64,000 bases of DNA, taken from NCBI GenBank assembly GCA_947034895.1, contig OX344762.1, forward strand, positions 33,274,760 through 33,338,759, written 5' to 3'. Numbering within the stretch: position 1 is the stretch's first letter; each line of letters starts with the position of its first letter. The translations under genes were made by a program, and so were the position numbers. The stretch is from Rhytidiadelphus loreus. Its lineage: Eukaryota; Streptophyta; Bryopsida; Hypnales; Hylocomiaceae. This document shows positions 1 to 29,745 of this stretch, in pieces. The notes under the pieces were generated by a model, which was not told the origin of the DNA, searched no databases, and saw nothing but the letters and a program-made list of their open reading frames with translations.

Positions 1-213
1 TCTTTGAAATAAGATCTTAGATTTGATTTTCCCAAGATCTATTAGCTAAATGGAGGGGATTCTAGAGGTTTCCACCATTAAACAAAGAATATTTTGAAAA
101 ATACATTAGGGTAGTTTAGGAAAATATCTAGGTAGGAAGTAAGAGATTTTTCATTGACAATTTACCAGGGAGGGGCCGGGAATGAGTATAAAAGGCCCTT
201 CCTCGAGGTTGTC
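1..213 (+). repeat. LTR-like dispersed repeat fragment (U3-like part, empty TTAA site)
   Basis: This stretch is closely similar to the reverse complement of two blocks at 31262-31164 and 30239-30100, separated there by a 924-bp insert. It carries a TATA box (TATAAAAG at 187-194) followed by GGCCCTTCCTCGAGGTTGT, as expected near the start site of an LTR. Similarity stops near 213. The TTAA at 78-81 is the uninterrupted version of the site that holds an insertion in the other copy. LTR identity is an inference: no paired LTR, primer binding site or polyprotein was found. Confidence 0.6.
187..194 (+). promoter_or_regulatory. TATA box in LTR-like repeat
   Basis: TATAAAAG is kept in both copies of the repeat (here, and on the minus strand at 30123-30130) with the same downstream GGCCCTTCCTCGAGG block. 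Conservation of box and context suggests a promoter of the repeat; no transcript evidence is available. Confidence 0.4.
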
Positions 214-1539
214 TATGGTTGTAATGTAGATTTTACCTATTCAACAAAGTCCACAAACAAAGGATCTAAGGGTCAATTCTCTTAGGAAAGGTCAATAAAT
301 CTAGTGTTTTGTGACTAAGGTCAATCGTTTTGTATTGTAGATACTTATCTATGTCGTTTCATGTTTTGTTTTCCAAAAGAAACTCACAAAATGCACCTAA
401 TGTCAATTTTTCACAGTCCAAATACCAATGCTATTTTATAGACACAAATGTATGGCGTCACATAATTAAAAGACGTCAATGTATGGCGTCCTGTCTAGTG
501 TGTGACTCATGTCAATTCTCAAGTCAATTTGTGATGGGTAGGTCAATTTATCTTTATGCATGCTCTAGCCACTTAATAATAATAATATGTAAACATATTC
601 ATAATTACACAATTTTTATTATATTAAAGAAATTTCTTTTTCAATTCCCTTAATTTAATACATATCAAATTATAATTTATTTTATCACTAAAAGAATTAA
701 TATTGTTATCACAAAATATTCATATATTTAACACTTGAAAAAGAATTGGTTCTTTCTTGATTAAGTTGTGTTTTTGTCTTCAAGCTTTTCCCTTTAGCTT
801 TAGTTTTTCAAGGGGCAATTTTATCTTTCTTTGTATCACTTGGTTAGTCAAATAGGCACACGACAAAAACACAACCAAAACTCATGTTAATAGACCTAAG
901 ACTATGACAAGTCTAATTGTAGTGAGTCAGTCAACTTGCCACCAACTTCCAACCATTGTCTGTCTACTTGACTCGCATTATAAACCTTTGCAATTAGACT
1001 TGGTTTGCAATCAACTAGACAAATCTCAACCACTAAATATGTTGTATAGAGATTTGATACCACTTCAGTCTACCAGTTGGAGAATTCTAACCACCAAGCT
1101 TAATTTGCATAACAATTAATTTAATCAATTTGCTTTACTGACTTCTTGAAACGCTATATTCACTATTTTGGGAGTTTTCCAGAGAATTGAGAGTTTAATT
1201 CTAAGGCATTGGAATGTCACAAAGCAAATTAAACGTCAGCAAACACATAGAAATCAATCAATGCCAATGAAAACTATCTTCCCATACAAGATTTAGAAAA
1301 AATATACTCAAAATTATGCGCATTGCATCTCTATTAGTAAGGAAACTCATATCATTTACACATATTTGCTTTCCTATGTGTGCAATACATACTCGTCTAT
1401 GCAATTACAAGTGTAGTATCCAAGTAATGACTAGTTAATAGCAACCCCATTGTTCCACCTAAGTAACCAGTGAATTAGAACTCACTGAGAGAAGCCTTAA
1501 CATCATGTAACAGAAATGTACATATATGAAGCACAACTA
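214..1539. other. Non-genic, GTCAATT-rich AT-rich DNA
   Basis: No convincing gene. The word GTCAATT or its complement, and variants such as CAATTAGAC, recurs from about 245 to 560 and 905 to 1260. The two short open frames (330-653, 904-1119) have no recognisable domain and biased composition, so I do not call them. The 3' end of the minus-strand unit and its untranslated region probably extend into 1300-1539. Confidence 0.5.
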
Positions 1540-3572
1540 TCAACTACATGACGTACTCTTCATCTTCTCAAGGGCCCTCAAAATTTCAGGCCCACGACTG
1601 TACCCCCCTCGGACACCTGCACCTTCCTGACACATGTGCTCCCTTCTTTGTGCTAATAGTGACCTCCGCTCCCAAGAGTCCCACGTAGGAGTGGAGGACT
1701 GAGTACTGCATGACCTCTCCGCTTTTCTCTTTAATTTTGCTGATTGAGACAATGCACGGCAACGTGGAAGTAGAGGTCGAATGAGAGCGGGTTTAATTTT
1801 TTTTCCGGACGAGAGCGGGTCACTTGGCATATGGGCTTTCACTTCTGGTGCCGACATCAAACAGTTTGCATCTCCGTAGAGCTTCCTTTGCGTCCCTTTC
1901 TCTGAAATAGTTGGCGAAGCCGACGAATCCCTCGCTGCCCTAGAGCGCACAGGAGATGGCGAGCACGAAATTGGCAAGCGCGGCTTCTTGTCAGGGGGGC
2001 TGTTTACCACACCGTCTTCGACGTGCTTGACAGAGAAGTCCATGGTGGAATTCACAATCGGCGCCGAGCAAAGGAAATTCCCCGTACTAAGTATGACGTA
2101 TTGTCTATAGTCGAAAATGGAGTCCTCGGACGCTTGACACGGAAGAATCTCAATAATCCTGGAACTGGTAGACCCGTTTCTCATCTGACAGAGAACAAAA
2201 ACAGAATTAGCCATAGAATCGTCAACGCATTATAAGTACACATGGTTCTGCACAAACTTTAGATACATGAATGAGCCGTTGAATTTCACATAAAACATTA
2301 CCCTGACTACATTTTAGCGCGGACGGCGCTAAAATGCAACAGACAAATACGCCAAAACAAGCGTTTTACATCCGATACAATTTCCGTGGACTCCAGAAAC
2401 ACGTCTACCTGCATACCTCAAAAACCACGTCTAACTAACACTAGTTGACCCACGGAGGACCTCCATGAGGTTTTCATACTCTCGATGACCTCGTTCTTCG
2501 CACAGCATCCGTCTCCCAATCCTCCATTTCTTATTCTCTCTGAAGGACTTCAGACCATTGCTACGGTTGACGTGCAATTGTTGGAACCAAGGAAGAAGGA
2601 CCGTCAGAAGGAACGTGTCTTTGTCACCGTTTCCTCGGTTACTCCAAGAATCCGCTAAAATCACATTCTCAGGCTTGTTCATGATGTGTTTGCGCGGACT
2701 GTCGTCCACAATCACTGTATTCTGAGAAGTGAAATTCCCGTGGAAGCCTGAGAAAAGGAAATCTAGGTTCTTAAGGAACAAGTCCTTATTCGTTCCCGGT
2801 TCCTTGTAAGAGGTCAGCCTTCCGGCTCTATCCCTGCACTTAATAGTCTTGCAGGAGTCTTGCCCCAGAACGAGGAAGGGCCACCTTCCTTCTCGAAAGA
2901 GGTACACACAGATCTCATCGGTCGTGGTTTTTTTCATGGAGCTCCATATAGTGATTTTAGCTATCCTCCCTATCTCCTTCAAGAACTCAAGGCAATTTGG
3001 ACGGACATATACTGCTTTTGATACAACAATTGCATCGACCGTGGCAGAGTGCGGCTCTAACTCGTTTTGAAAATTATGCCTGTTTGAACTATTTGACTTC
3101 CAGTCCTCGCTGTGGCATAAAATGCCATTGAGGTCTAGGACGACGTTCATCCACTTCTCTGCCACCCCAGACCTCAATGGACGATGGATGCCCTCGGAAG
3201 TGCCCTCACGAACTACTGTAGAATCGGAGCCCTGCTAACAAACGTAGGAACATAGAGCAGTTACAATCGTGCAATTGGCTTTGTTCGGACATCATGTGAA
3301 ATCAAGTCACAGTCGGAGGAAAAAAATAGAAAAATAAAAGTCTAATCACGCCGGAAGAAAACAAGGGATTATACCTTCTCCACTGTCGAACTTGAAGGTT
3401 GATCATCATTTTCACAACCGGTATTCACAGGATCAAGCGGTGACGTATCGTCATCGAGTTCTAGGAATTCAGCTGACGTGATAGGATTATCATCCTCAAT
3501 TTCAAAATGAGTCGTCGTCACCAGTTCATTTTGTGTAGAAGGGAAGACACAGACCTCAGGACAACTTTCCAT
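1540..3572 (-). CDS. FCP1/NIF-type HAD-like protein, probable pseudophosphatase (three exons)
   Basis: Modelled as complement(join(1540..2184, 2440..3231, 3375..3572)), 544 aa, with all introns in phase 0. Donors are GTATAA and GTTAGT; both acceptors end in CAG. From about residue 96 the middle exon carries VVLDLNGILC, the nucleophile motif of the FCP1/NLI-interacting-factor branch of the HAD superfamily, then ITIWSSM and later VDDSP. In active FCP1 phosphatases motif I is DxDxT/V. Here the second Asp is Asn, so catalysis is doubtful; I recall plant relatives with a similar DLNG motif. The first exon is acidic and Ser/Thr-rich. The last exon holds basic nuclear-signal-like PDKKPRLP and KLKRKAERS. 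The start is uncertain: the frame runs upstream of ATG 3572 to an AG acceptor at 3585-3584 whose phase matches the preceding ParB-like gene, so both may be one 1821-aa protein. Confidence 0.65.
2313..2333. repeat. 21-bp palindrome, copy 1 (intronic)
   Basis: It has 8-bp arms TTTAGCGC and GCGCTAAA around a 5-base centre, and pairing extends outward to 11 bp (2310-2336). It lies inside the 255-nt intron 2439-2185 of the HAD-like gene. It belongs to the 20-copy family described under findings. Confidence 0.9.
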
Positions 3573-3772
3573 ATTCACAGGGCCTGCAATTCACGATTTG
3601 GAAAAGTTTCTCTGTGAGAAATATATTACATTTTCAAAGATAACTGTCTCTTACAATACAAAACTGAGTCCATAAAAGTCCAAATCGTAACTAAGGCCTC
3701 TACAATAATCGTCCGATAAACATCGAGAACTACTCCTATTTACAAAATTTGAGATCAATCTCTACCAAACAG

Positions 3773-3793
3773 TTTAGCGTTTGTCGCGCTAAA
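3773..3793. repeat. 21-bp palindrome, copy 2 (between stop and next exon)
   Basis: Arms TTTAGCG and CGCTAAA. It lies just beyond the TAA at 3824-3822, inside the proposed 252-nt intron 3835-3584 if the two minus-strand genes are fused, otherwise in the short gap between them. Confidence 0.85.
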
Positions 3794-3821
3794 TCTACAC
3801 AAAGCAATGCTCACTAAGTGT

Positions 3822-6800
3822 TTATTGGGCAGAACCTGTAGGTTGATCTTCGGTGGGCAGGGCATCACTTCCAGGCTCCACCTTGGAAGCATCACTGGAC
3901 AGGTTCTTCCCAATGTCTGTCTCTGACGACAAAATTGGTGCAGCCTTCGGGGAAGAGGGGTGATCAACAAGATCATCATCAAACGGCAACGGTGCTGGAG
4001 ACTCCGGTGCACTACTTGGAAGTGGTGGAGACACCGGCACAGGTAGCGATGGACTCGAGGCATTGCTGACGTTAGAGCCAGACGGCAGACCTTGCAGCTC
4101 CAACACTGGAGTCTGGGCAGGAGGAGGCAACGCTGCGATCGGCTCAACCCCGACCTTCTTGATCAAGATCTGCAACATTTCTCTATTTTGCTGGGCTAGC
4201 TCTTGGTTGGTTTGAGACTCCAACCGCATCCACTCTTGATTACGCTTGTGCATTTCAAGGTTTTCAGCCCTCTCCTTCATCTGTTCCGCCCTCAACTGTG
4301 CCAGTGCAAGCTCATTTTGCTGTTGCGTCAACTGAGTTTGTTGTTGCAGATTAGCCAACGAAACTGCATTTTGCGCTGAGATCTCAGCCAACTGTTGCGC
4401 GATACTTGACATTGAATTGTGCTTCTTCTTTTTATTTGGCCGCCCAGACGGAGTAGCAATCCTCGGCGTCCCAGGCAATGGAGGTAATATAGAGCTCGCC
4501 GAAGAACCAGGTATATCTGTTGATGGTCGACTTGTAGGAGTTGCCATCTCATCTATCCCCTGAGGTTCATCTTCGTCAACGTCTTCCTCCTCTTCATCGG
4601 ATTCCGAATCAGATGGTACATTATCATTGCGCGGAACCTCCCTCCGCAGCAGATCACTCATATCGGATGCCTGAGACGACCTCAGTTTCTTCTTCGCGGA
4701 GGAGGGTGTAGTACTTGGACTAGCTGCAGCAGCAGCCCTGGGGTACCCACTATCAAGAAAGTCCGCTATATCTAGCGTCATTGCCTTCCTACAAATGTCC
4801 TCCCACCATGATGATTGAGTACCCATTCCAGTGGCGAAGACGTTCACATTACTCATCTGCCAAGACAAAATCACAACATTATTTCGATTACCGAGACAAA
4901 TCAGTCGCTTTAGCGCTGACCGCGCTAAATCGACAGCCGGTACCCGTACACAGAACATGAGTAATACGATAATAACATTAATGTCAGTTAACATTGACAT
5001 GGCTTTTTAGAGCGACTCGCGCTAAAGTACAGACAAATTGCTTACCACGGCCGCGCACGTAAGCTTTCCCCCAGTATAAGCAGAATAGATTGATATGCCA
5101 GACTTGCAGAAGGCCTTCACGAGCCACAAATAAAATTCCATTCTCAACTCGGTGTTGTATATCCGATACTCAAGTTCACTGTATGCGCGCGCTTTCATGT
5201 ATCGTGCTATTTCCGGACACTCGAATTCCTCTGGAATTTCCACGGTGTTCTCGTTCTCGGGATCCTGCAGGAAGATCAAGAACACTTTCTTTGGTGTCTT
5301 CGCTGCAGGAAGATCTCCGAGGCGATCGTTCTTCCCAGCGGAGTAAACAGAGTACGAAATTGTATACGACTCCAAAACCTCGTCGGATTCAATAAATTTA
5401 AGGACCTGCGCTTGTTCCTTCTCGTCACCACAAATGAAAAGCCAAGATGGAATGTCTTCTAGTGCAGGTTTCCTTTTCGCCTCCATTGACGCGAGTACTT
5501 CGATGAAGTACGGTTTCTCCACCGTAGAGCTCTCCTTCTTTTCAATTCCTGGCAAGCACCTGAAGTCAATCACCCCCAACGCAAGATAGTTTCTCGTCTC
5601 CGCAGTCCATACCTTCTTTGGCCATTCCTTGGTACTGTTCTCGACGTACTCATAGGGACGGTAGTGACCAGTTGCTGTCGGTCTCTCAAATTTGGATTTG
5701 TGCAGAAGAAACATCTTGAAGAAATCGTAGGCGTCTTGAGACAGCTCAGTGATCGGCTTGTTTCTTGAGGATTTGTTCTTCGCTTTGCCAAAGTAGGCTT
5801 CTCCTGGTCTGTCGAGGAGTACATCCATTGTGGCGCTGGAGAAGAATCGTTCCATTTTGAAGGCCTTCCAGTTCTCGTTGATGATCTCGTTACAAGCATT
5901 CATGAGCCCAAGTTGCGGTTTGATTTCATGAAGCTCCTTGATCACGAGGTTCTTCCGCTTACGACGTTCAACCCACTCTTTCGTGTTGAAGCAGTCATCC
6001 AGGACAGATGAGATGCTCTTGACTGTGACCTTGGGGTAAGCGTGATTGCGTTTTCCACCCGACTGATTAAGCAGATGATTTGCTAGTTTAGCAATTTCGT
6101 CGTAGCTCAAATTGCCGAGGTGCTTAAAGAATTCACGATTCAACATACAACTCTCGGGATTCCAGCCCGGCTTTTCATTAAACATCATCTCCGTGTAGGG
6201 GTTGACGAGCTCTCCGTGCGCAGCAGCGGTGATCACCTCACTCCAAAGTTTATACACCTCATCGGGCGCCGTGATGAGTCTCAGTTCGTTTGTGAGCTTT
6301 AGCTTCTCCTCCTTAGACTTCGTCTTTGAAATCTTCAAATTCTTTATGACGTCAATCATGGAGAACCTCACATACATTGCCTTCTCGAACACCTGAATCA
6401 TTTTGAAGTGAATAGATTCAGAAACGAAAGCACTTGATCATATATCAAGATAATGTTCACGACAATGATCATACGTGAGTATTGCTATTTAGTGCGCCTC
6501 GCGCTAAAACGCACCTGGAAAGCTTCTCTCTTGTTCCGGTTCTCGACGGTCCTTCTCATGGCCGTAAGAGATCCAATAGTCTTTGTCTGCGTTGGATTTG
6601 CAGGCCTGCCCATATCCTCCCATACTTTTCTCGCTCCTAAGATGTTGGTCGCCCATGATGGTTGTACCGCCACAAAATGATTTGTGCGGTTGTAATAGGC
6701 TGAGATGGCTCGCAACTTCTCAGCGTCCTGTGACCACACAACGAAGCAGTTCCATTTACGGAAATGCTCCCTCTCATCCACGTCCATGTTGTTCTCATCA

Positions 6801-7966
6801 TTGAACATGTATTTGCTGGCTTCAACACTATGTTGTCCGTTAATGATGTAAAATATTCCATCTTCAATGTCCTCCCACCTTGTTGGCTTGTAGCTGAAGC
6901 CGACGGGCATAACGCATAGTGTTTGCTTGGTACTCTTGTCAAGTATGTTGAGTAGCCAATTGACCATGTCTTCAACAATGCGGTTCTCCTTGGAACGGAT
7001 GTTATATGTTGCAAGTGCCTCAATGAGCTGGGAAATGTCGATCTCTTTCTTCTCATCGACAGCGAACACATAAGCGTCGTCACAGGTGCTCCAAAATTCC
7101 TTGTATACCTGGCTGACGTGCTCGTAGTCAGGTTTTTTCTCAGTTGTCTGAGAGTGTGGCACTTTCTCCATTTCGTCCGCGTAGCTGCCTTCCTCGACTT
7201 CGGATGTTTCAGATTCCTTTGCTAGCTTGGACCTCTTAGGCTTCGGCGTAGCCGGCTGTTTCCCCTTTTGCGATTGCACCTTGGACGCTGGCGTCGCAGG
7301 CTTTCTGTGGCCTCGACTGGCACCGGGCTCTTGCTTAACCTTCAGCTTTGATGTCTGGCTGACTCCGGTATTCATGATCTCCTTCGATACAGATTGAGGT
7401 CTGTTATTTTCTTGTTGCATCTCCATCTTCCCCTTGAGCATGTGAAAATCGTTGAAGAGCATCCGAATTTTACTGCATAGTTTTTTCCACGACAGCGGAG
7501 TACCATTGGCATTTTTCCACTCATTGTTGTCTAGCTTCTTTTCCAGCTCTTTGATCTCTTTGCGGTAGGGAGTTGGTTCGAGACTCGAGAGGAACGGGCT
7601 AAGATGGAAGGGAATGAGGACGGAGTTAATACAAATAGCGAAATGATATTGATCCTGCAGGCATGATCCAGGAATGATTGTCATACATTTGACTTTGATC
7701 ATGGGATGCGTGTCAGCTTCTACATCCTTAATTTTCTCGTGGAAAGAGAGTTGTAGGTGACACTGTGCATTTCTGAACTTGTATGAGAAGCAGATTTGAT
7801 TTATGAAAGGAATCATGAAGAAGCTCCATGATTCTACTCTCTCAGGTTCTTTGAACTCCCAATATTCTCCTTCGATGAGGTTGTCGTCTGCACTTTTATT
7901 GTCCTCGAGAAGCTGGACTTCACACTTTTTGAAGTACATTTCCAGAGCCTCGATCTGGTTCTCCAT
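3822..7966 (-). CDS. ParB/sulfiredoxin-like protein with possible degenerate DNA-methyltransferase-like region (three exons)
   Basis: Modelled as complement(join(3822..4856, 5046..6392, 6515..7966)), 1277 aa. Introns are 122 and 189 nt, phase 0, with CAG|GTGCGT and GTG|GTAAGC donors and CAG acceptors. Residues about 290-400 (FAVDEKKEIDIS through to YIINGQHSVEASKYM, with N376 G377 Q378 H379) match the ParB/Srx fold signature around its G-Q/E-H/R motif. In bacteria this fold binds or cuts DNA or nucleotides and is often fused to N4/N6-adenine or cytosine methyltransferases. Exon 2 ends in FYLWLVKAF through YTGGKLTCAA (about 923-932), which resembles the FxGxGTT..AA S-adenosylmethionine motif of beta-class enzymes. 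The expected DPPY is not visible, so activity is unlikely. Exon 3 has an acidic run (about 1016-1031), basic RPNKKKKH, a Gln-rich coiled coil and a Pro/Ser-rich tail. ATG 7966 follows a CAG acceptor by one base, implying a 5' UTR intron. Confidence 0.7.
4909..4929. repeat. 21-bp palindrome, copy 3 (intronic)
   Basis: TTTAGCGC and GCGCTAAA arms. It lies inside the 189-nt intron 5045-4857 of the ParB-like gene and is the second palindrome in that intron. Confidence 0.9.
5006..5026. repeat. 21-bp palindrome, copy 4 (intronic)
   Basis: Arms match the family except at one position of the left arm (TTTAGAGCGA). It lies in the same intron as the copy at 4909-4929, near its 5' splice site on the minus strand. 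Confidence 0.9.
6488..6508. repeat. 21-bp palindrome, copy 5 (next to a splice donor)
   Basis: It lies in the 122-nt intron 6514-6393, beginning only about 5 nt after the GT at 6514-6513, so an RNA hairpin here would sit against the 5' splice site. Confidence 0.9.
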
Positions 7967-8001
7967 TCTGAAATATCAAGACAGACAAGTTCGGTAAGTT
8001 G

Positions 8002-8022
8002 TTTAGCGCGAACCGCGCTAAA
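8002..8022. repeat. 21-bp palindrome, copy 6 (upstream of the ParB-like start codon)
   Basis: Arms TTTAGCGCG and CGCGCTAAA around a 3-base centre. It lies 36 bp upstream of ATG 7966, probably within a 5' UTR intron, and 201 bp from the first unit of the neighbouring array. Confidence 0.9.
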
Positions 8023-8202
8023 GTGTGTCGGGAACGGTATATTAATTCACTCAGGAGACAGACATTGTATGTTTTGAGTTCAAAGTCTATGGTCTGGAAG
8101 GGTCTTGGCCGATGTGTGGGCAGCTTTTATGGGTTGAGAGGATTTAGTTGAAATGCTGGGGTTTCTATCATGGTTTATCTTCTTGAACGAGGAGGAGTCG
8201 TG

Positions 8203-8640
8203 TTTAGCGCGAGTCGCGCTAAACCAACACATAGGAGTTGGGTATATATGTTGGTCGTATTTTGTTATATGGAGTATGAAATGTCATTTAGCGCGACTCG
8301 TGCTAAACAGACACAGAGGAGGTCGAGGTGGACTTCAACGGACGTAGTGTTCTCTTCGGATAGTTTGAGTCATTTAGCGCGAGCCGCGCTAAATAGACCC
8401 ATTGGAGGTAACGTTATATGTGGATTTCTGTGTTTTTTGCGGGTATTATGTGCCGTTTAGCGCGAGCTGCGCTAAACTGACACATGGGAATTGCGATCTT
8501 ATGGCGGGCGTGTTCTTCGCTTCGGGGAGTTTGTGTCATTTAGCGCGACTCGCGCTAAACAGACACACGGGAGTTTAATTTTGTGTCGGACGTGCCTTCT
8601 CGTCGGCTTGTATGCATCATTAAGCGCGAGCCGCGCTAAA
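8203..8640. repeat. Tandem array of six palindromes with a period of about 83 bp
   Basis: Palindromes start at 8203, 8287, 8373, 8456, 8539 and 8620, with steps of 84, 86, 83, 83 and 81. Each is followed by a similar but diverging spacer (for example GACACATGGGA-like text, then TTTGTGTCAT before the next copy). The array lies upstream of the minus-strand ParB-like gene, most likely inside its 5' UTR intron or promoter. The copy at 8539-8559 is a perfect 10+1+10 palindrome. Confidence 0.9.
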
Positions 8641-9150
8641 ATATGCAATTGTTTTCAGGTAGCATGCTTGCCATTTATATTAGGGTTTACTGATTTCTGG
8701 ATGAACTGCTAAAATTTCTACAAATGCAGGTTTAGGTGGGACTTCAATCTATGATTTTAGGGTTTCCCTTGGACTGATTCAAACAAAATTGGGCATAATT
8801 CAAATGATATTGGGCATAATTCAAACGAATTCATGAAATTGAATTTAATGCGCTTGAATGACAAACACGACTGAATCTCAAACCCTGAGCTCTTGAATCA
8901 GAAATGTAAGTGAATAAAAAACCGTAAATCAAAACTCAAGATTACAATGCACTGGACAACCCGAAACCCGAAACTCACATACGTATCACAAAAACCCGAA
9001 ATTCAAATACGTATCACGAGATCACCAATAACTTTCATATGAACAAGAAAAGCAACGAAACAATGAGGAGTGAAATGCTGTACTTCACGAGTTTCCAAAT
9101 TCCTGTGACGAGTTCCTCAAAGTCCAGAAACGTCCTCCAATACCTGCCAC
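8641..9150. other. Non-coding upstream region of the ParB-like unit
   Basis: AT-rich sequence with short direct repeats (ATTGGGCATAATTCAAA-type units near 8790-8830 and AAACCCGAAA-type units near 8960-9005). No gene is seen. It lies in the interval between the two divergent units and may be part of the 5' UTR or promoter of the minus-strand unit. Confidence 0.4.
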
Positions 9151-10380
9151 CTTCACGAGCAAGCCCTGGAGCTCTGATTCTGAAATAAGATAAACATATC
9201 CACACAAACTTTGAAATAAGAAAAACATATCCGAACTAAAGCATAAACAGTACATGATCTAAAAAGCCGTAAGAACACAAAGGGAGGGACTCGGTGATCC
9301 AAAAAACACAAGCTCGACGTGTTGCCAAAACCCATAAACCCGACGTGCTCAGGAAATTAAGGGCACGTGAACATGAAACACCAGATCCCGACGTGCACAG
9401 AACACTAAATACCCTAAACCCGACGTGCACAGCAAACTTGTGAACAGAACACTAATACCCTAAACCCGGTTGCACAGCAAACTTGTGAACCCGAACACTA
9501 ATACCCTAAACAACGATTTCTGTTTTGGCTGAACACACAATTTGAGCTGAACACACATGAGCTGAATACACACCCGTTGAACACACAGTTTGGCTGAACA
9601 CAGAATTTGAACGATTTTTGTTTTGGCTGAGCGTCCGCTGCACCGAAAAGAGAATAGCCCAACGTGCACAGACACTCAATTTGAGCAATTCCTAGTTGGC
9701 TGAGTGTGCGCTACACTAGAAGAAAAAAACCCGACGTGCACAGCAAAATTGAACACACACTTTCATGAAGTAACAAAACACACAAGACTGCCACTTTGCG
9801 AAGTACTTGGAATAAGAAACAAATCAGCCAAATGTTGGCTGAACGCCCAAGCTCCGCAACGACCAGAAAAGCAACTTCACGTTCAATCCTGCGCCGATTT
9901 CTTCGCCGAGTTCCTCGATGGCCGCGACTTCACAAACCTCCGCCACGACCAGAAATCGCAGCGCACGCTCAGCTTCAAACTGCCAAGACCAGAAATCGCT
10001 AAACCCAACACACTCAGGCCAGGAATCGCAAAAAACGCCAAACCTCCGCCAAAAAATCGAAGCGCATGGTGAGCCAAACCTGAAATCGCTCAGGCAAACC
10101 CAACAACCACTCAGCTCAGCCAAGAATCGCTAAACCTAACAATTGGTAAACGAAACCCAGGAATCGCTCAGTCTAACCCAGAAATCGCTAAGAAATCGCA
10201 GGCAGACTCAACAGGCGAAACCCTAACGCGCACTCCCCTAACGCACAATCGAAGAGCGCAGTCTTACCCGCCCGATTTTGCGCAGTTGGTACCTGCCCAT
10301 TCTTTTTTGGTAGTACCCGCCCGGTTTAGGCGATGTTGATACCCGCCCGATGTACCTATGTGATACCCTCTTGACGCTTT
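9151..10380. promoter_or_regulatory. Repeat-rich, relatively GC-rich region, candidate promoter/5' region
   Basis: Three layered motifs recur: CCCGACGTGCACAG with ACACTAATACCCTAAAC units (about 9310-9510, again near 9660 and 9730); GAAATCGCT/GAATCGCT (about 9945-10200); and ACCCGCCCG with GGTACC or GATACC (about 10266-10352). Several overlapping frames stay open, but composition and repeats explain them and no domain is seen. Because it precedes the minus-strand unit and differs in composition from its AT-rich surroundings, I suggest a promoter or first non-coding exon; this is inference. Confidence 0.35.
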
Positions 10381-13300
10381 TATCCGCGTATGACACACAA
10401 TGTGCACTTTCAATCGAACCCTCCTTTATACGTAGGCTTTATTTAACCCCTTAACAAATAGATCCTTTTTCAAATTTTAACACTTTTTTCTTTATACCTT
10501 TGTACAGTAACACCATTTACTAAATTTTCATGAAATTAGGCATAAAAGAAGGTTCTCTTCTCAAGATTCAAATATTACATTGCATGAATGAGGAGGCACT
10601 TGGATGAAACAACACCTGTAAGACCTATGTTCATCGTCCAGAACATAAACGTAAAAGGTTAATGTATGCTGTAACCGTTGATTGTGGACCACTTTGCCTT
10701 GTAACGCTATCCTGGACACTAAATGTCCAGTGCATAATAGTTGTAATTCTTCAGTATAAAATCGAAATGCAATATTCATCCTCGAAAATGTGTAAATTCA
10801 TCTTGTACAATATTCATCTTGTACAGTATTTTCACTTTTATCCTAAACCCTTTTCTATTTACTAAAACAATTCATTCCACAATATTGATTTCTTTAAAAA
10901 CACCTTCAATTTCTTTCTAAATTTAAGCAATCTACGCATGTATTTTTGCCGTATGAGGTATAAAAATTTCATGTTTCCAATTAAAAAGATTTTCATTGGA
11001 AACATTTCATTTTTATGTAATTATATTATTTCTACAATTGATATTATCTAGATTACTCTAAGACGATAGGTAGTCGAACCCTATAGCTAATATTTATAAT
11101 TTATGAATATCCATTAGTATAGAAGTACTAAATTTTCTACTCTAGAGACCACACCTGAGCCCCAGAATATGGGAATTTAATTTTAATTTAAACCCAATGA
11201 ACCCCCAAATTACTCTATTGGCCCACTTCGACACTTTGTAACCAAGCATGATTTAGTGTCTTTCCAGAAAGAACACATTGAAAAATTATAAAGTAAAAGA
11301 AAAAGATAAGGAACGTTAGAATTTGTTGTACTTTTCATTGCATGATGTTCTCAGAAATTGGTGAAAAAAGAATCCAAATTAGGTACATTTTTAAGAAAAT
11401 TAGGGAATGCAAAGGCAAGATCAAATGTTACTCCATAATTTTTCGAAATCAATTCACACCTCCACATAAACAAAATTTCATTCCACACTATTTTTATTGT
11501 GAATTCTAAATGGTTTCTTTTTATCTATTGTACATGAACTACAAAGTGTCCATTGAAAATTATAAACCAATGAAATTGACTATTTCCAAATAAATAAGAC
11601 GTTGTTCTTTAGAAATTAGAATGAATCGATTATAAAAATTATAAAAAACTACGACTTCTAAGAATCATATATTACATTGTTCAAAAACGGCCTCCAGATA
11701 TACAAGAATGAAAATACTTTAAAATATAATCTTGTAACATATAAATTATGGTAGTAGCTTCTTGAAATAGAAATTCCACAATTTAGCTATCTTTAGCATG
11801 TATTTTCAAAATTGCAAATGAATTTTTTGTTAATTTCTTTTGGTGCTAAATGAAATTCACAAACTTCTCACAATTGCATTGGATGTAAGAAAACTATAAT
11901 TGAAATCAAAGCCCGAATAATTCAAAGTAAGAGTGATTTCATTTTTTAACCAAAAAATCATAAAACATGAATGTGAGGTTCGAGTAAAACAAATTACTAG
12001 GTGTTAGAGGGAAAAAAAAAAAAAAAAAAGTTTTCATATTTTGATTTAAAGTATATAGTTCATTATTGTAACAAATAACTCAAATTCAAAATCATACGTA
12101 AGTTAAATTTACTTGTTTCCTTTCAGTACTCATTAAAAATAATTAGTCACCATAAATAGACATTATCATTATCTCATAATTGTCATTCATGATTCTACTA
12201 GATATTGTAAGTGTGCCACAAGGTACAATGATTATTTTGTGACTTATGATTGGCATAATTAGTAGTGCTCTCCTTGTCTCTTTCAAGGCTCCAAGTTTTC
12301 CAAACTTGGACTATTTAAAATGTACACGCTCTTTCAATCTTTCTTTAGGACATTTGACATTTCATGCACCCAAAATACGATGGATTGTACCAAATTTGGT
12401 ATATATAATGTATAAAACAAATACCATGCACTGAATGTATTCTATCCATGATTATTTTCTAAGTAACTAAACTTAGAACTTCAACATTTTCAATCCTAAA
12501 CCTTTAAAGAAATGTTTTTTTATAGTTCGGCAAATTATACGTAAATTACTAAATGTTACCCTAAAAAAATCAAACTTCATCTATGGATCTTTGTACGCCA
12601 AGGAACTTTTCTTTTCAGACATACGCCATGTGCACTAGTTAACAAATACAAAATGTTAGCTCAAAAGTCATGAGATAAATTAAGTAAATGGAATGAAAAA
12701 AATATGTAGAAGTTCTAAACAAGTTGAACGATTACAATTCATGGAAATCATGCATTTACGTTACTTTTATGCATTTTCGTAGACAAAAGACATTTTCATT
12801 TCTTGAGCCATGTATTTATAGTTTATACTTGCCCTAATTAAAATCCATAAGGTGTATATATATATACAATTATATATATGTTCTCTTTTAATTTATTTTA
12901 TTTTATTTAAACTTTACGATTTCTAAAGAACAAGACATGGCATATGGAAGTATAATTTTTTGGGAGATAGAAAATTGCATACAAGTAGCATAAAATTAGT
13001 TGTCTCACCAAATTTTAATTTTCTTGTACTTTACAACTTCTACCTATTTTTTATTATTTTCTTCTATTCAATTTCTCTTCTATTTTTTTGTCTTTCATTT
13101 CTGACACTAGAATAGTTATACATGGCTTAATAAACGTAGTACAATTCCTTTAGCGTAGGGAAAGGACCACTCCTGTTAATTATCCATTTTTTATGTTTAC
13201 AAAAAAGAATGACTCATGCCCTGTATTTCATATTAAATCCTCAGGACACTGTATTTCCCATAAAATACAATAATTATAAAAAGATGCAAAATGCTTTAAA

Positions 13301-14179
13301 GAAGTTACTAATACTTGTAGGATGTTGCATTCATGACCTGTCTACATAATTTCTTGGTCAATTATATTTTATATTTGTCATGCCATAGCATTTCATTTCA
13401 CGTTCGCAATCATTCAAATTTATTATTATTTATATATTTTTTTGAATCCTTGAGTGTCTGAATAATTGCAACTTGCACAACATGTTTCCCATTTACTTTT
13501 ACATGAATTTCATGAGATTCCATTTCTTTGGACACTAAAGTATAGTATAAAGTTCATGTCCCGATTCTGAAGTCCAATTAGTACATCTTCAAATAGATCA
13601 TTAATTACATATTTTCTTGAATCCTGAATTTACATGGTCTTCCAAACTTCTATTTTTTTTTTCTTACATTCTTTTAAATTTTTTATTTATTTATTTCTTC
13701 AAAATTCTAAACTACAGTACATAGCTTTTTCAAAACAATGCAAGTTCTATTGCGTACTAGGAAGTTGCCTACAAGTAGTAAAAATGAGTGTTTCTCCTGA
13801 ATGTACAAGTTCAGAGTATTTGCAACTTCTACATATGTTTTATTTTTATGTTATTAGTTTATTGCTTGGGTTTAGAGCTTTAAAATTTTTGAACTACAAT
13901 ACACGTCATGTTAAAGAATAAGTACTACACGTGTGCCTTTGAAGTACAACGAACAATTACTCCCAATTTATTTCACACTCGTTATATTTGACTTCTCAAC
14001 AAAATTCCAATAATAATCTTATTGATTTCACCTCCAAAGAACTTTAGAAATGCATGCAAAAATTTGCTCTTCCACATACTGGCGATTTTATTTCCTACAC
14101 ATGAAGCTCGGAAGTACAATGAACCATCACTTGTAGCTCTCATTAGAATGTGATAAATCCGACCTCTTTTTCAATAATG
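10381..14179. other. AT-rich spacer between the divergent units
   Basis: About 3.8 kb of AT-rich DNA with homopolymers (for example the poly-A at 12011-12029) and no recognisable gene, RNA or paired terminal repeats. It separates the GC-richer left and right arms of the divergent module. Confidence 0.5.
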
Positions 14180-14189
14180 TCATGCATTA

Positions 14190-14250
14190 TTACCTAAACC
14201 CTAAACCCTAAATCCTAAACCCTAACTGTGACCCTAAACTCCCCTAAACC
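14190..14250 (+). repeat. Short interstitial telomere-like run
   Basis: Several CCCTAAA heptamers, some imperfect (CCTAAAC, TCCTAAA), occur here. This is the Arabidopsis-type plant telomere unit. The run is too short for a telomere and is better read as an interstitial relic or a telo-box promoter motif. Confidence 0.6.
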
Positions 14251-15337
14251 TAAAGCTTGAATATCACTACAGTAAAGTGGAATTTCAGTACTATAAAAAA
14301 TAATTTTCAAGAGTCATATTTAGCACTATAAAATATGCCTTCCCTATAAAAGGAATAGGAATTCCCCTAATTGTAGACACTATGTAGTCGAATAAAAACT
14401 GGACTTTTGGAAGATCGGAATGTCATTTCATCAAAGCAAGAATCCTCTTAATAGAAACAGAATTATTTACCCTATGCTATTTAAGTATTCTAGAAACGAA
14501 GCGCGTAATAGGCGAATAAACAGGATGAGGCTAAAAATGAAAATTCTGCCTGGCGTTCGTGACAGTTTTCGAATTGCAAGACGACACGTCAGTGGACGAA
14601 AGTCAACAAGCATTAATATAAGGAATCCTGAAAAAGCACATCACCCCATTAAATCAGTTAGGACTATCGTTTTTTCTAGGATTAGTTGGTGCTTCATAGT
14701 ATAAACCTACGCAAGGAATCCCGGGGTTTCTGAAATTAGACAGAGGTCTTTCAAAATCATGGAATGGGTTGCCGCAATTTTCTTCCCGCCAAGAATTCAA
14801 GTGTGCGTCGTCAACCAAGATGCAGTCATCTCCTTCCATCTTTCTCTTCAACCGAGTCGATTTCTGTGCGCACTGCTCTCATTGTGTGCGTCTTGTACTT
14901 GCATTGTTAGTTTTTTTGCAGAGTTCAAGAGTTCCTTTTGGGATCGCAGGTGTTTAGGTCCGCTTCCTCTTTCAGGAGGTACTTCATCGCATGTAGTTGC
15001 TGTTACTCTACGTGTACCCTTTCAATCAGTGTTGGAACTTGAAGCGGGAACTTGGAGGAAGTCAAGTCCATTTATTTCATTAGCTTCACAGGTGCAATTG
15101 TTAGCGTCTATATTCACTTATGAAATATGCATATCATGTCGCACCTTTACGAATGTGCTAGATTCCCATCACGTGACGTTGTTACAGAAATTGTGATGAC
15201 CACTATACGATACTTCCTGGTATTCTTTCCTTAATTTTCGGAATTTCTAAAAATAGTAATATCATTCCTGAGAAGTAAAAGAGTTCCGTAAAACACGGGA
15301 TTGATGAGAAAATTATTATAAATTATGATGATGTCAC
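14251..15337 (+). promoter_or_regulatory. Candidate promoter and 5' untranslated region of the DUF7869 gene
   Basis: TATAAAAGGA near 14346 is a plausible TATA box. Downstream lie pyrimidine-rich stretches (14829-14850). Open frames at 14420-14704 and 14759-15196 show no domain. A CAG acceptor at 15917-15919, six bases before ATG 15925, implies a 5' UTR intron whose donor should lie in or upstream of this interval; GCAG|GTGTTTAG near 14950 is one candidate. Confidence 0.3.
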
Positions 15338-15792
15338 TTTAGCGCGACTAGCGCTAAAGTGCATGTCTCCTAAATGTGAATTGTTCAATTGCAGTTTAGT
15401 GCTAGTCGCGCTACAAAGCATGTCTCCTAAATGTGAATCGTTCATTTGCAGTTTAGCGCTAGTCAAGCTACAGTGCATGTCTCATCTATGTGAATCGTTC
15501 AATTGCAGTTTAGCGCTAGTCGCGCTAAAGTGTATGTCTCCTAAATGTGAATCGTTCAATTGCAGTTTAGAACTAGTCGCGCTAAAGTGCATGTCTCCTA
15601 AATGTGAATCGTTCAATTACAGTTTAGCGCTAGTCGCACTGAACTGTATGTCTCATCTATGTGAATCGTTCGCCTGCAGTTTAGCGCTAGTTACGCTGAA
15701 ATGCATGTCTCTTTTATTTGATTCACCCGTTTGAAGCAAAGCACTATTTGTCTTTAGAGAATGAACTACACTTTAGCGCTAGTCGCGCTAAA
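15338..15792. repeat. Palindrome array with an exact 57-bp period, plus one outlier
   Basis: Palindromes start at 15338, 15395, 15452, 15509, 15566, 15623 and 15680, every step exactly 57, then at 15772 (step 92). The spacer reads GTGCATGTCTCCTAAATG then TGAATCGTTCAATTGCAG with few changes. Because 57 is 19 codons, a frame stays open across the array (15363-15734) and would give a degenerate 19-residue repeat. The first and last copies have the best-preserved arms; several inner copies have arm mutations. The array ends about 130 bp before ATG 15925. Confidence 0.95.
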
Positions 15793-15924
15793 ATGCATAT
15801 GTGTCTATTGTGTCCTTCATTGTATCTATTATCTGACAAATGTTGCATAACTAATGTGACGTTTTTGGATTATGTTCTTTAGTAGCCAAAGGACTTCATT
15901 TTTTGATTGTATTGTGCAGGTGCC

Positions 15925-18723
15925 ATGGATTCTGCATTGAACCCAGATATTGACATGGACATCTCGGACGATGAGATACAAGTGATTCAGGAAATAAATG
16001 TTGGCATTCCTGAGTGTAAAGGGATTCCGCGTCAGATGTGGAATAAGAAGTGTGTTAAGCTGTATAATGCTGAGGGCTTATTTGTTGGTGAAGGTATCTG
16101 CTACAGCGTGAGCTCTGATCTAGTTCTTGGTGCTAGTGGTCCGCTTGGTGATACTCATGTTTCCGTGCATATTTCAAAGTCCCATTCTGAAGTGGACCTT
16201 CCTGAGGAATTGTTTTACTCGTTGGTAGCTTGGCCAATTGAATTGGTTCATTATCGTGGAGCAAGTCTTCACGATCATGAAACTAGGGACAATTTCAACC
16301 GTCTGCAAGCATCTCTTCTAAACCCGCCCTCTGCATCATCTACAAGACCATATGCTAGTGCCATCAGAAACCCGCCTCGGGAAACTGGTATCAAAACAAA
16401 AGAGCTCCTATCGCAGGAGTCAATTAACTTGGTGTCCAGCAAAGTGTGTTGCAGCAAGAATTGTGTCCAACCCTTTCCTAGGGAGAAAATTAGAGCTTTC
16501 CGAGAACGCATGTATCAAAATTCAACTTTCAAGCACAGAGCTTTCATGAAAACTGATGTGCACAGACAGATTCATGAAGGTTCACGGCGAAGGAAGATGG
16601 TGACAATTGAAGAGATAAATGTGTGTTTACGCGCATGGATGCATATTGCGGGTGTTGCTGAGTCTACATTCTATCGATACTTGAAATACATGAAGGATGA
16701 TCGCGAAGCAAGGGATCACGGCAATACTGGATTGTTGAAGCCTAGAGAACATACTCAACAAGCCACGGCTTCCTTGAAGTGCATCCTAGACAAGGAGGCT
16801 GATCACATGCCTCATCGTACCCGAACTTTGAAGGAAGGTGATAAGGTTGTGTCCAAGATTCTTCCGGCATCATTCCTATGGAAGGACCAGTTGCAGAAGC
16901 TCAATGAAACCAATGCGGCTTTTGGTTTGAAGGAGATTTCAACTTCAACCTTGAGCAAGATAAGGTCCACAAAGTTTTCAGAGTTTGATGTGAAGAAGCC
17001 GGGGGATAATTTTGCTCGGTGTGCTACTTGTGACAAATATAATGAGCTCATCAAGGGTGCTATCAATGGCTCTCAAACGGCTATGAAGTGGTCAAGGAGG
17101 TTGAATAAGCATCTCACTGTCGCTCGAGCACACATGGATGTGTATTACATAAACCGAGACTTGTCGTTCAATTCTCCGCATGAGTGTCTTACCATCATAC
17201 ACGACAAGATGGATCATGCAAAAACCGCTTGTCCTGTCTTCTCTCACAAGAGTAAAGAACTTGATGGCCTCATGAAGCTACCTGTATCTGTGACCGGCAT
17301 GATTGCGCATGGTCATGCGGATGTGCGCTACGCGCATTATGGCTTGGATGTTTTCTCGCATGACTCCAACTATACCATTGGTTCAATGGCAAAGTTGTTG
17401 CGAGATTTAGAGTTAGTACCGAAGTCGTCTTCTAGAGAGTTGTTCAAAAATGCAAAGTCTACTAATTTGTTTAAGGCTGTACTAGAGGGTGCAGACATGT
17501 GCCATGCGTCGTTACCTCCGTTGCCAAATACCTTAGCTCCAGCTACGCGACTACCACCCATTTTAAATGTGCAAATGGACAATGCTACTGGAGACAATAA
17601 GAATAGATTTGTCTTCTGTTTTTGGTCTCTTCTTGTAGCAAACAAGATCTTCCGGGAAGTTTATGTGAACTTCATGATCGTGGGTCATACTCACGATGAC
17701 ATTGATGCTTTATTTGGAAGATGGAGCATGGATTTGAAGAAAGAGAATTTCCCAACAGTGCCAGCGCTAATGAAGTCCTTCATGGATGTGGATTCCGTCC
17801 CCACTATCCCTCACCTTATTGAGGAAGTACCCGATTTCAAGGGGTTTATAGCAGGATCATTTGTAGATGGAGATGACATTCTTGTTAGGCACACAAGGCC
17901 ACATCAATTGAAGTTCTACCTAGATTCAACAGGGTGCCCTGTCATGAAGTACAAACTTTTCTGCACTGATGCTGATTGGTTAGGTGAAGGAGGAGGAGGC
18001 ATTAAGTTGTGGAAAGAAGATGCTGAAGGGCAAAGTTTGTGGCCACGCGGTTCACCATTGCCTGTTCCGTTGAAGCCTATGAAAGGCTTGGAAGACTTCG
18101 TCAAAGGTGTGTCGGGGTTTGTAAAGTATTGGGAGAATTTATGCAATGCAGACGTCACTGGGGATTACCGAAGACGTTACGAACATTTGGTGAACTATTG
18201 GCGTGGCGTGAAGGTAGCGTTGATGGAACCGTTACCTACCTTTCATGTTTTGAAGGACGGTTTTTGGCCAACTACACGTGTTCAAGCAAGTCGAGTAGAT
18301 GAATTAGACGATGATGGTGAGGATCGTGAAGAGTTTGGGGAGGATGACCCGTACGTCGGGCCATTGAGTGGTCGCCCGAATCCATCTTTTCGAGTGGTTC
18401 GAGATTTATTTGAAGGCTATTTTGCTGCAGTTCGGCCCGTTGATGGTGACTCGCACCCAATTTGGATTGCAAGGGCATTGTCTGATCCAAACTCCAATCC
18501 AGAGTATCCAAATTGTGTCCTTCTTCAATACTTCCGTCCAACATCAAGAAATAAGAATGTTCAAGATTTCTACACTGGATGGGACAGCAAAAGAGGTTTA
18601 CGTTGGAGGGTTGATGAAACTGAACTTCCGGTTTGGCAACACATGGATGCTCTTATGACAACGTGGAAGTCGAGGATCCAGAAAGACACTGTGGAGTGTA
18701 TGATCAAGATCCCTGCTATATAA
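15925..18723 (+). CDS. DUF7869-type protein, transposase-like (intronless)
   Basis: 932 aa from ATG 15925 to TAA 18721-18723. Hallmarks of the DUF7869 family are present: a CxxC module (CATCDKYNELI, about 366-376) followed by HLTVARAHMDVYY, then QMDNATGDNKNRF (Asp about 552), then GHTHDDIDALFGRW (587-600). Asp with NKN and the HTHxDID block look like catalytic positions of an RNase H-fold DDE enzyme; that function is inferred, not established. The N-terminal third has a helix-rich region (STFYRYLKYMK, then RDHGNTGLLKP) that may bind DNA. The C-terminal part has an acidic loop near residues 793-813. I chose ATG 15925 because the frame upstream crosses a CAG acceptor at 15917-15919. The long, uninterrupted, low-decay frame suggests recent function. 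The gene diverges from the ParB-like unit and shares its upstream palindromes. Confidence 0.8.
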   Translation: MDSALNPDIDMDISDDEIQVIQEINVGIPECKGIPRQMWNKKCVKLYNAEGLFVGEGICYSVSSDLVLGASGPLGDTHVSVHISKSHSEVDLPEELFYSLVAWPIELVHYRGASLHDHETRDNFNRLQASLLNPPSASSTRPYASAIRNPPRETGIKTKELLSQESINLVSSKVCCSKNCVQPFPREKIRAFRERMYQNSTFKHRAFMKTDVHRQIHEGSRRRKMVTIEEINVCLRAWMHIAGVAESTFYRYLKYMKDDREARDHGNTGLLKPREHTQQATASLKCILDKEADHMPHRTRTLKEGDKVVSKILPASFLWKDQLQKLNETNAAFGLKEISTSTLSKIRSTKFSEFDVKKPGDNFARCATCDKYNELIKGAINGSQTAMKWSRRLNKHLTVARAHMDVYYINRDLSFNSPHECLTIIHDKMDHAKTACPVFSHKSKELDGLMKLPVSVTGMIAHGHADVRYAHYGLDVFSHDSNYTIGSMAKLLRDLELVPKSSSRELFKNAKSTNLFKAVLEGADMCHASLPPLPNTLAPATRLPPILNVQMDNATGDNKNRFVFCFWSLLVANKIFREVYVNFMIVGHTHDDIDALFGRWSMDLKKENFPTVPALMKSFMDVDSVPTIPHLIEEVPDFKGFIAGSFVDGDDILVRHTRPHQLKFYLDSTGCPVMKYKLFCTDADWLGEGGGGIKLWKEDAEGQSLWPRGSPLPVPLKPMKGLEDFVKGVSGFVKYWENLCNADVTGDYRRRYEHLVNYWRGVKVALMEPLPTFHVLKDGFWPTTRVQASRVDELDDDGEDREEFGEDDPYVGPLSGRPNPSFRVVRDLFEGYFAAVRPVDGDSHPIWIARALSDPNSNPEYPNCVLLQYFRPTSRNKNVQDFYTGWDSKRGLRWRVDETELPVWQHMDALMTTWKSRIQKDTVECMIKIPAI

Positions 18724-19095
18724 ATTGAAGTCATCAACGAAAGCTTGATTTCTTATAATTGAGAAGCAATATCCACATATGTGTATATGTGGCATGTTCA
18801 GTTTTGGATTGAACATCCTTATATTGTGTGTAATGGATGGAATTTGTTTATTGCAGTAGATTGCATAGGTTTAAGTTTTGTTTTGTTTGATTTATAATTT
18901 GGTATTGCTTGTATGTTTTAGAATATATGTTTAATTTATATAAATAAGACTATTCAATTTCAATTTTAATGTATTTTTTTTATGTACTTCTGAGTTTAAT
19001 ATCTTACATGTTTTTCCCATTGTTTTATTTTATTTTGAATAGCATTTATGATATAAAAATCTATGACCAGTTAAAGTGAAAGTGTGAGGCCATTG
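18724..19095. other. 3' flank of the DUF7869 gene
   Basis: T-rich, AT-rich DNA typical of a plant 3' UTR and downstream flank. A short inverted repeat CCACATATGTG...CATATGTGG lies at about 18772-18793. No gene is seen. Confidence 0.4.
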
Positions 19096-19099
19096 AAAA

Positions 19100-19335
19100 A
19101 AATGGGTAGTGGGTATAACCACTTTGTTTTTGTTAATCGTGTTAAGCACTTGTCACATTTCGGATAGGGGGCCAGTTGATTGTTACAACATTTCTGCCTG
19201 TCGGATTCACTAGCAGTACTAAGTCATGCATGTCTCTCAGTCGTTCATACGAGTTCAACGGGAATCGAACCCGGACCGCCTGAATGAGATAATCAACCCC
19301 TTACAACCAACCACAGAGCTCATGACTTGGTGTTC
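19100..19335 (-). mobile_element. tRNA-derived SINE (probable)
   Basis: On the minus strand the sequence GAGCTCTGTGGTTGG and, about 40 nt on, GGGTTCGATTCCCGTTGAAC resemble A- and B-box parts of a tRNA-type RNA polymerase III promoter; the B box GGTTCGATTCC is perfect. A tRNA-unrelated tail follows toward 19100, ending near a T-run on the minus strand. It does not fold as a complete tRNA and has no anticodon arm I can identify. The exact 3' end and target duplication were not resolved. Confidence 0.6.
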
Positions 19336-29354: not shown

Positions 29355-29745
29355 GTCATTTTGTCATTAGTCTGTGGCGCTCCCTCGTCATTAGTTCGTG
29401 GCTCCTTGCATTGTTCGTTTGTGGCTCCTCCGTAGTGAGACAGTGGCTCCCTTGTCGTCAATTTGTGGCTCCTCCGTTGTCAGTCCGTGGTCCTTGTCGT
29501 CAGTCCGTGGCTCCCTTCGTCGTTAGTCTGTGGCTCCTTCGTAGTGAGATTGTGGCTCCCTTGTTGTTAGTCCGTAGCTCCTCCATTGTCAATCCGTAGC
29601 CCTCGTCATCGTCCGTAGCTCCCTCCGTCGTTAGTTTGAAGCTCCTTTGTAGTGAGACTGTGGCTTCCTCGTCGTCAGTCCATGGCTCACTCTGTCGTCA
29701 GTCATGGCCTTCGTTGTCAGTCATTACTCCTTCATAGTGAGACCG
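29355..29745 (+). repeat. Minisatellite-like GTGGCTCC / GTCGTCAGTCC region
   Basis: Imperfect units combining GTCRTYAGTCYGTGGCTCC and GTAGTGAGAC recur about every 20-30 bp. A frame stays open through part of it (29258-29599), but its Ser/Val/Leu-rich product mirrors the repeat and is not called a gene. Confidence 0.65.

Follow-up and report, generated by a model that had tools for sequence, protein, structure and literature searches.

A 64,000-nucleotide stretch of the genome of the moss Rhytidiadelphus loreus (contig OX344762.1; 'the window' below, numbered from its first letter) contains what is, to judge from its sequence, a giant DNA transposon of 18.4 kb (1150–19575) with two divergent genes. 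One gene encodes a DUF7869 protein, predicted to be the transposase; the other, on the opposite strand, encodes a protein with a predicted ParB fold and an FCP1/SCP-like domain, and arrays of a 21-bp palindrome lie upstream of both. In a diverged cousin element of the same genome, a distinct palindrome of equal length occupies the corresponding places. On balance, we think it probable that the ParB-fold protein binds the palindromes of its own element and thereby counteracts silencing or keeps RNA polymerase II working. The original prediction for this DNA had proposed a divergent cassette of a ParB-like and FCP1/HAD-like unit and a DUF7869 gene, accompanied by palindromes, and that cassette is real.

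The same prediction suspected a mobile or domesticated system and reported no terminal inverted repeats. Mobility was borne out, at least for the past; the report on the repeats was mistaken. Terminal inverted repeats of 29 bp, detected by an inverted-repeat search as 30-nucleotide arms that are 90% complementary, lie at 1150–1178 (left, + strand, 5'-AACGCTATATTCACTATTTTGGGAGTTTT) and 19547–19575 (right, − strand, also seen by flank comparison), and are bounded on both sides by a target site duplication, TTGA, at 1146–1149 and 19576–19579. Copies were sought in the window's own genome (407 Mb in 489 contigs). Window positions 900–1540 had at least 40 matches, including the window itself (40 scored of 92 candidates), and 38 of the 39 others start within 8 bases of window position 1150. 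Where inspected, the flanks of family copies differ from each other. Of 16 window-family copies inspected, three (C1:48.06M, C3:62.05M and C4:0.26M) are without one end or both in the DNA retrieved; all 13 with both ends readable carry a 4-bp duplication (TTGA, TTCA, CAAA, CCTG, TATT, TGGT, AGTT, CAAT, CATT, TATA, ATAA, AGCT and ATTT), with no fixed target sequence. A piece of the AT-rich, palindrome-free region between the two genes (10000–11000) has at least 53 genome matches. Copy number, ends and target duplications rule out ordinary single-copy host genes, and the insertion of the cousin element into a family copy, described below, is further evidence of past movement.

The DUF7869 gene (15925–18723, + strand) encodes 932 residues, for which Pfam gives DUF7869 alone (expectation value, E, 1.2e-42). 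The modelled structure has the DDE/ribonuclease H (RNase H) fold of retroviral integrase and transposase cores. In an alignment of the product (P0001) with 57 of its 107 homologs, D430 is present in 58 of 58, D552 in 52 of 54 and D594 in 53 of 53 rows that have a residue there, and D594 would be the third catalytic residue. The protein is thus predicted, from the model and the alignment, to be an RNase-H-like transposase with a catalytic triad of aspartates (DDD). Sola elements are described, in the accessible portion of one account, as having DDD transposases and 4-bp duplications and as being present in Physcomitrium (Physcomitrella) patens (PMC10741241). Both features are found in the window family, and the duplication is found in the cousin as well; the element is most likely of the Sola kind. 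Those relatives of the encoded proteins whose source is named come from mosses (P. patens and Ceratodon purpureus). We found no mention of DUF7869 in the open-licence literature, as far as searched, and none of the 10 stretches of a viral collection that matched a pattern encodes a DUF7869 relative. The C-terminal domain of the product (residues 820–930) bears a weak likeness to BAH chromatin-reading domains.

The opposite-strand unit is likely one spliced gene, as judged from reading frames, splice borders and homologs. All its exons lie on the − strand: exon A (6515–7966), with the start codon and the ParB-fold domain, recognised by in-frame joining, alignment and structure; exon B (5046–6392), a domain of unproven fold; exon C (3836–4856), low in complexity and rich in glutamine; exon D (3375–3583); exon E (2461–3231), with the FCP1/SCP-like (NIF) domain (Pfam E 8.1e-20 for 2434–3234); and exon F (1540–2184), the last conserved coding exon, whose joining to E is uncertain. 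Exons A, B, C and D join exon E in frame at GT–AG borders, which are retained from exon A to E in seven rows, except for the A/B acceptor of C3:62.05M. All six exons are present in 6 of 6 fetched copies, some of them fragmented. The protein encoded by exon F is 93–95% identical in five of the six, and 77–86% identical, in two pieces, in the sixth; its acceptor AG is retained in 7 of 7 rows, the in-frame donor for the E/F join is weak, and a better donor lies behind a stop. Because P0111, a predicted P. patens protein of 1491 residues, carries a ParB-like part and a NIF domain in one chain, exons A–E, and possibly F, are likely one gene.

Profile and structure comparisons agree with the domains first proposed for this cassette, namely the ParB fold, the FCP1-like domain and the transposase-like enzyme; exon B has no profile match. 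The product of exon A is predicted to have a ParB fold, since its model matches the ParB N-domain in structure comparison, and a long helix is modelled in the exon C part of an ortholog. For the FCP1 exon, the best nine solved relatives are CTDSPL, SCP1 and SCP2 (E 0.0066–0.029). Inspected by eye, exon B faintly resembles a degenerate N4/N6 methyltransferase, and it has no DPPY-type motif: the site where one would be expected reads VIDFRCLP in the window, IIDLRELP in P0109 and VIDFRILP in the cousin, and P0115 lacks that stretch. No Pfam or NCBIfam methyltransferase matched exon B of the window or cousin, or P0109 and P0115, proteins of P. patens and Ceratodon, at E up to 10, a search in which weak matches were mostly filtered out by the tool. 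A methyltransferase reading of exon B is accordingly without profile support, and the structure model is too poor for comparison.

The two genes are linked in the genome. Exon A had at least 89 matches in the genome, at 53–100% identity (88 of 1101 candidates scored), and DUF7869 at least 49 (49 of 2173 scored). A divergent ParB exon lies upstream within 40 kb of 23 of the 49 listed DUF7869 matches, at 6.3–8.9 kb in 18 of them, against a mean of 0.34 and a maximum of 3 such pairs under random placement; three further pairs within 40 kb are not divergent. In C. purpureus the DUF7869 and ParB-type proteins have the consecutive locus tags KC19_3G000200 and KC19_3G000300, which suggests that the genes are neighbours there too. 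Independent occurrence of the domains, which would have spoken against a single system, is not the pattern seen, the remaining 26 DUF7869 matches having no such exon among those listed.

The palindrome, TTTAGCGC-N5-GCGCTAAA, occurs at 20 window sites with up to three mismatches, where 0.12 would be expected. Seven sites form an array upstream of the ParB start codon (8002–8640), six of them spaced 81–86 bp apart, with an 81-bp tandem repeat at 8459–8640; this array probably sits in an intron of the 5' untranslated region (5'UTR). Eight lie upstream of the DUF7869 start codon (15338–15792), seven of them repeating in tandem every 57 bp. The other five are dispersed between ParB-gene exons: between E and F (2313–2333, no mismatch), in the putative C/D intron (3773–3793, one mismatch), twice in the B/C intron (4909–4929, no mismatch; 5006–5026, one mismatch) and in the A/B intron (6488–6508, one mismatch). 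The window scan found no palindrome in any coding exon, in the interval from 8.7 to 15.3 kb, or close to the element ends. A 151-residue open frame (15279–15734, + strand) crosses the 57-bp array, whose period is a multiple of 3, and is probably no gene.

Genome-wide there are 370 exact sites of the window type and none of a reversed-pattern control. Among the first 50 on the list, 46 have a match to ParB exon A or DUF7869 no more than 10 kb away, and the other four (C1:2.08M) lie about 10 kb from a match to the intergenic region. We then compared the left half of the window element with six copies, in a test that treats related copies as independent. The palindrome arms diverged by 4.05%, exons by 4.81% and other intron DNA by 7.21%; the arms thus change more slowly than other intron DNA (0.0405 against 0.0721 substitutions, p 3.4e-5) and no faster than coding DNA (p 0.26).

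The cousin element, 20.9 kb long with its own terminal repeats and the duplication TTTA, is nested in the family copy at C1:76.75M, where it splits a palindrome of the 57-bp array at TTTA (C1:76,769,628–76,790,482; L023, L024, L077 and L078). Its transposase is 48.8% identical to that of the window, and its exon A, exon B and FCP1 exon are 23.7%, 28.1% and 33.8% identical respectively; exons C and D were not located in it. It carries a different palindrome, TTATCYTC-N5-GARGATAA, also of 21 bp, at 39 sites with up to three mismatches, 35 of them with at most one. Twelve of these lie upstream of the ParB exon, two in the A/B intron, two behind exon B, two farther along before exon E, six between exons E and F and 14 upstream of DUF7869, and one weak site, with two mismatches, lies behind DUF7869. 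The ParB half alone holds 24, against 0.24 in single-base shuffles. The window-type motif is absent from the cousin's ParB half and the cousin-type motif from window positions 1–20000; two distinct palindromes of equal length occupy corresponding places in the two elements. With 3182 exact genome sites (reversed-pattern control 0) against 370, the cousin family is probably much the larger. A third palindrome class, TYAGCTCGANTCGAGCTRA, with 506 genome sites (control 0), stands beside both genes at C1:31.37M, a locus whose ParB exon A is 60%, and whose transposase is 76%, identical to that of the window.

Between these extremes, we examined subfamilies in 20 of the 89 listed exon A matches, chosen at 53–83% identity to the window. 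Palindromes with exact 8-bp arms occur upstream in 18 of the 20 copies, and in neither L038 nor L044; allowing up to two substitutions from the general pattern, upstream sites are found in all 20 and a site in the first coding intron (A/B) in 19, L063 being without one. Three copies with exon A at 80–83% have the arms of the window, and the remaining copies differ. Covariation between the arms was then measured on 251 sites, picked by pattern in 27 copies (31 stretches), with shuffles that take no account of relatedness. The third pair is T:A in 155 sites, C:G in 51, T:G in 22, C:A in 15 and otherwise in 8; the seventh is G:C in 164, T:A in 50, G:A in 12, G:T in 10, T:C in 10 and A:C in 5. Complementarity at pair 3/19 (206 sites, against 143 if the arms were independent) and at pair 7/15 (214 against 148) was not equalled in any of 1000 shuffles. 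Pairs 1 and 10 covary too, pair 10/12 mildly (170 against 153), and pairs 2, 4, 5, 6 and 8 do not do so beyond chance, 2, 4 and 5 hardly varying at all. Sites within a single copy are mostly of one type, and the seventh-pair class can be placed on a 21-row tree of exon A with two changes, against a shuffled mean of 7.0 (0 of 500 as low).

In the mechanism that we favour, a dimer of the ParB-fold protein would bind the 21-bp palindromes as double-stranded DNA. With the 5' arrays of the two genes bound, and the single sites between the ParB exons as well, the transcribed element would be occupied; the bound protein would then counteract host silencing (DNA methylation, closed chromatin) or sustain RNA polymerase II activity, with the FCP1-like domain docking on the tail of the polymerase. 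Since every family has sites of its own, it would free itself alone, as VANC proteins do for VANDAL elements, and coevolution of protein and site would explain both the faster divergence of the ParB protein and the replacement of palindromes at corresponding places. That the places correspond while the letters differ, with both arms changed and the dispersed sites changed too, argues for a reader protein acting in trans. The ParB-fold protein is a better candidate for it than the transposase, since the sites lie between its exons and away from the element ends, and since it diverges faster. A more elaborate form, which we regard as rather improbable, is a parS-like clamp: the ParB protein would load at the family palindromes within the transcribed body of its element and spread, and its FCP1-like tail would engage RNA polymerase II, so that transcription of the element continues even as neighbouring DNA is silenced by the host. 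A family would then own its particular lock and key, the key having been wholly replaced between the two families and the places of the locks kept.

Several observations weigh against the proposed binding and function. ParB proteins have a CTP-binding (cytidine triphosphate) motif, GERRxxA. The presumed position of this motif in exon A reads NGQHSVxA, with N-G-Q-H invariant in 19 rows, and this replacement makes use of CTP doubtful. The model of the ParB protein is poor past the ParB fold (mean predicted local distance difference test score, pLDDT, 48.9), and no helix-turn-helix was identified in it, the region after the fold being mostly below pLDDT 50. FCP1/SCP phosphatases have the catalytic motif DxDx; motif I reads DLNG in the window, in P. 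patens P0111 and in the cousin, with DDSP retained, and phosphatase activity is doubtful because of this D-x-N. Among the palindromes themselves, conservation between copies does not extend to the 5-bp spacer (0.0958, against 0.0721 for other intron DNA, p 0.096), pair 9/13 does not covary (164 against 166 expected), and pairs 3/19 and 7/15 are unpaired in 45 and 37 of the 251 sites. Sites are mixed in L075, and one of the two changes on the exon A tree is a tie at L075. The 5'UTR introns were deduced from acceptor sites alone, and, among the matches listed, no ParB exon stands within 40 kb of 26 of the 49 DUF7869 hits. Finally, because the motif and both proteins are inherited together, congruence of motif and tree is not proof of which protein binds, and DUF7869 could be the reader.

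The last point leads to a rather unlikely alternative, in which the palindromes are sites of the DUF7869 transposase, serving transposition or autoregulation, and the ParB-fold protein does something else. A transposase is the protein that must bind element DNA, this one has its own palindrome array 5' of its start codon, and the motif is inherited with it. However, transposase sites would be expected towards the ends, and in the window the terminal repeats contain no half-site by eye, and no palindrome lies in the left outer 1.1 kb or past the transposase gene, where the cousin has one weak site. The dispersed sites lie instead among the exons of the ParB gene, and it is the ParB protein that diverges faster (24% identity against 49% for the transposase in the cousin, 60% against 76% at C1:31.37M), as expected of the part that follows the sites. 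We give low probability to the view that the palindromes act as RNA hairpins in introns and 5' leaders, in splicing control, RNA stability or small-RNA production. All 20 window sites do lie in introns or putative introns, those of the 5'UTR being guessed from splice-like sites, an 8-bp stem with a 5-nucleotide loop would fold, and two-sided changes are as compatible with a hairpin as with a DNA palindrome. A sense-strand hairpin, however, allows G.U and not A.C, yet over pairs 2–8 of the 251 sites there are 62 G.T and 58 A.C mismatches, and at pair 8 A.C outnumbers G.T by 21 to 7. As the two are about equal, the mismatches give no reason to prefer a hairpin in the sense-strand RNA to double-stranded DNA. 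There is mild covariation at pair 10/12, whose two bases could not meet in a stem with one base left for the loop, and the window has no Rfam match at gathering scores.

It is similarly improbable, in our estimate, that the ParB-fold protein is a modification factor, which would label the element by placing N4-methylcytosine or N6-methyladenine on the palindromes. This idea draws on the published accessory protein of the Ectocarpus element Sola1-1_Ec32, which, in the part of the account available, has ParB-like and N4-methylcytosine/N6-methyladenine methyltransferase domains and is encoded on the strand opposite the transposase (PMC12477816). Exon B comes after the ParB part, the position a methyltransferase would take, and has a glycine-rich stretch near its end. 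Against it stand the failed profile matches described above and the presumed DPPY-type site, where three of the four rows have VIDFRCLP or something close to it. We consider it very improbable indeed that the palindromes are functionless tandem-repeat debris in an ordinary transposon with an accessory gene. Several sites do lie within tandem repeats (57 bp and about 81 bp), which can spread any sequence, but the non-array site in the first coding intron is retained in 19 of 20 copies over 53–83% exon A identity, the arms change jointly and no faster than coding DNA, and two different palindromes of equal length stand at corresponding places.

Elsewhere in the window, a DDE_1 transposase fragment lies at 44958–45341 (− strand, E 3.3e-8), beside a frame (45405–45920) with no Pfam match at E up to 1. 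Tandem repeats with periods of 22 and 109 bp occupy 29369–29722, in a 1-kb bin of 42% G+C among bins of about 30%, and a 12-bp unit is repeated 10.6 times, with 94% matches, at 54685–54811.

Bacterial parS sites are palindromes that lie in cis near the parB gene. The moss element resembles this arrangement in its ParB fold and in having cis palindromes near the gene; it differs in being a eukaryotic transposon with many 21-bp palindromes, in having NGQHS in place of GERR, and in having no recognised partition partner within the element. Its FCP1-like domain, likewise, resembles the RNA polymerase II tail phosphatases in its NIF match and in keeping DDSP, and departs from them in motif I and in its fusion to a ParB fold. 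VANC proteins contain the Pfam domain DUF1985, for which we found no match in the window exons (E up to 1) or in exons A and B, P0109, P0111 and P0115 (E up to 10); any relationship would be distant. The resemblance to the VANDAL/VANC system of Arabidopsis lies in the arrangement. According to the available text of the published accounts, the VANC21 motif is repeated upstream of VANA21 and within introns of both VANC21 and VANB21, and loss of methylation and anti-silencing have been demonstrated (PMC5735166, PMC10398659). The moss element similarly has arrays of a family-specific short motif, in tandem in its non-coding DNA, in accessory-gene introns and upstream of the transposase, and in both systems motif and protein change together between families. 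By contrast, VANDALs are described there as Mutator-like, and the VANC21 motif as a 9-base non-palindromic YAGTATTAY, whereas the moss element combines a palindrome of 21 bp with a ParB fold and a different transposase; and anti-silencing, demonstrated for VANC (PMC5735166), is a proposal for the moss element.

The closest parallel is Sola1-1_Ec32, a giant DNA transposon of 21.5 kb, against 18.4 and 20.9 kb here, with a ParB-fold accessory gene of more than 1000 residues opposite the transposase strand; similar proteins are mentioned for green and red algae (PMC12477816, available portion). The algal ParB–methyltransferase proteins are suggested in the same portion to bind and modify their own transposon (PMC12477816). 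Unlike the algal protein, that of the moss terminates in an FCP1-like domain and lacks any catalytic motif recognisable as that of a methyltransferase, and the moss element has families of palindromic sites, where the part of that account available names no binding sites (PMC12477816). Because the algal accessory gene is already published, the kind of element is known and the original description of the system as undescribed was right only in part: as far as searched, the palindromic site system is new. Physcomitrella Sola1 elements, tabulated in PMC9033089, are likewise from a moss and, by the accessible published description, share the 4-bp duplication and DDD transposase (PMC10741241, PMC9033089). 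The DUF7869 and ParB-like proteins of P. patens may well belong to these elements, and the moss transposase may therefore already be catalogued as Sola. Two Mariner elements are named as expressed moss DNA transposons in the available text of PMC7466625. As far as we searched the open-licence literature, the novelty lies in palindromes specific to each family, the exchange of one palindrome for another between families, the fusion to an FCP1-like domain and the presence of a ParB-type accessory gene in a moss.

The palindromes, present in dozens of copies at corresponding places, and as two motifs in two diverged elements of one genome, are a likely target for the self-binding proposed for such ParB proteins. 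Were the binding true, the moss protein would be a second candidate, beside VANC, for sequence-specific anti-silencing, and the families would form a natural series of protein and site pairs from which to learn how a ParB fold might read DNA. The kind of accessory system known from algae would thereby extend to a moss.

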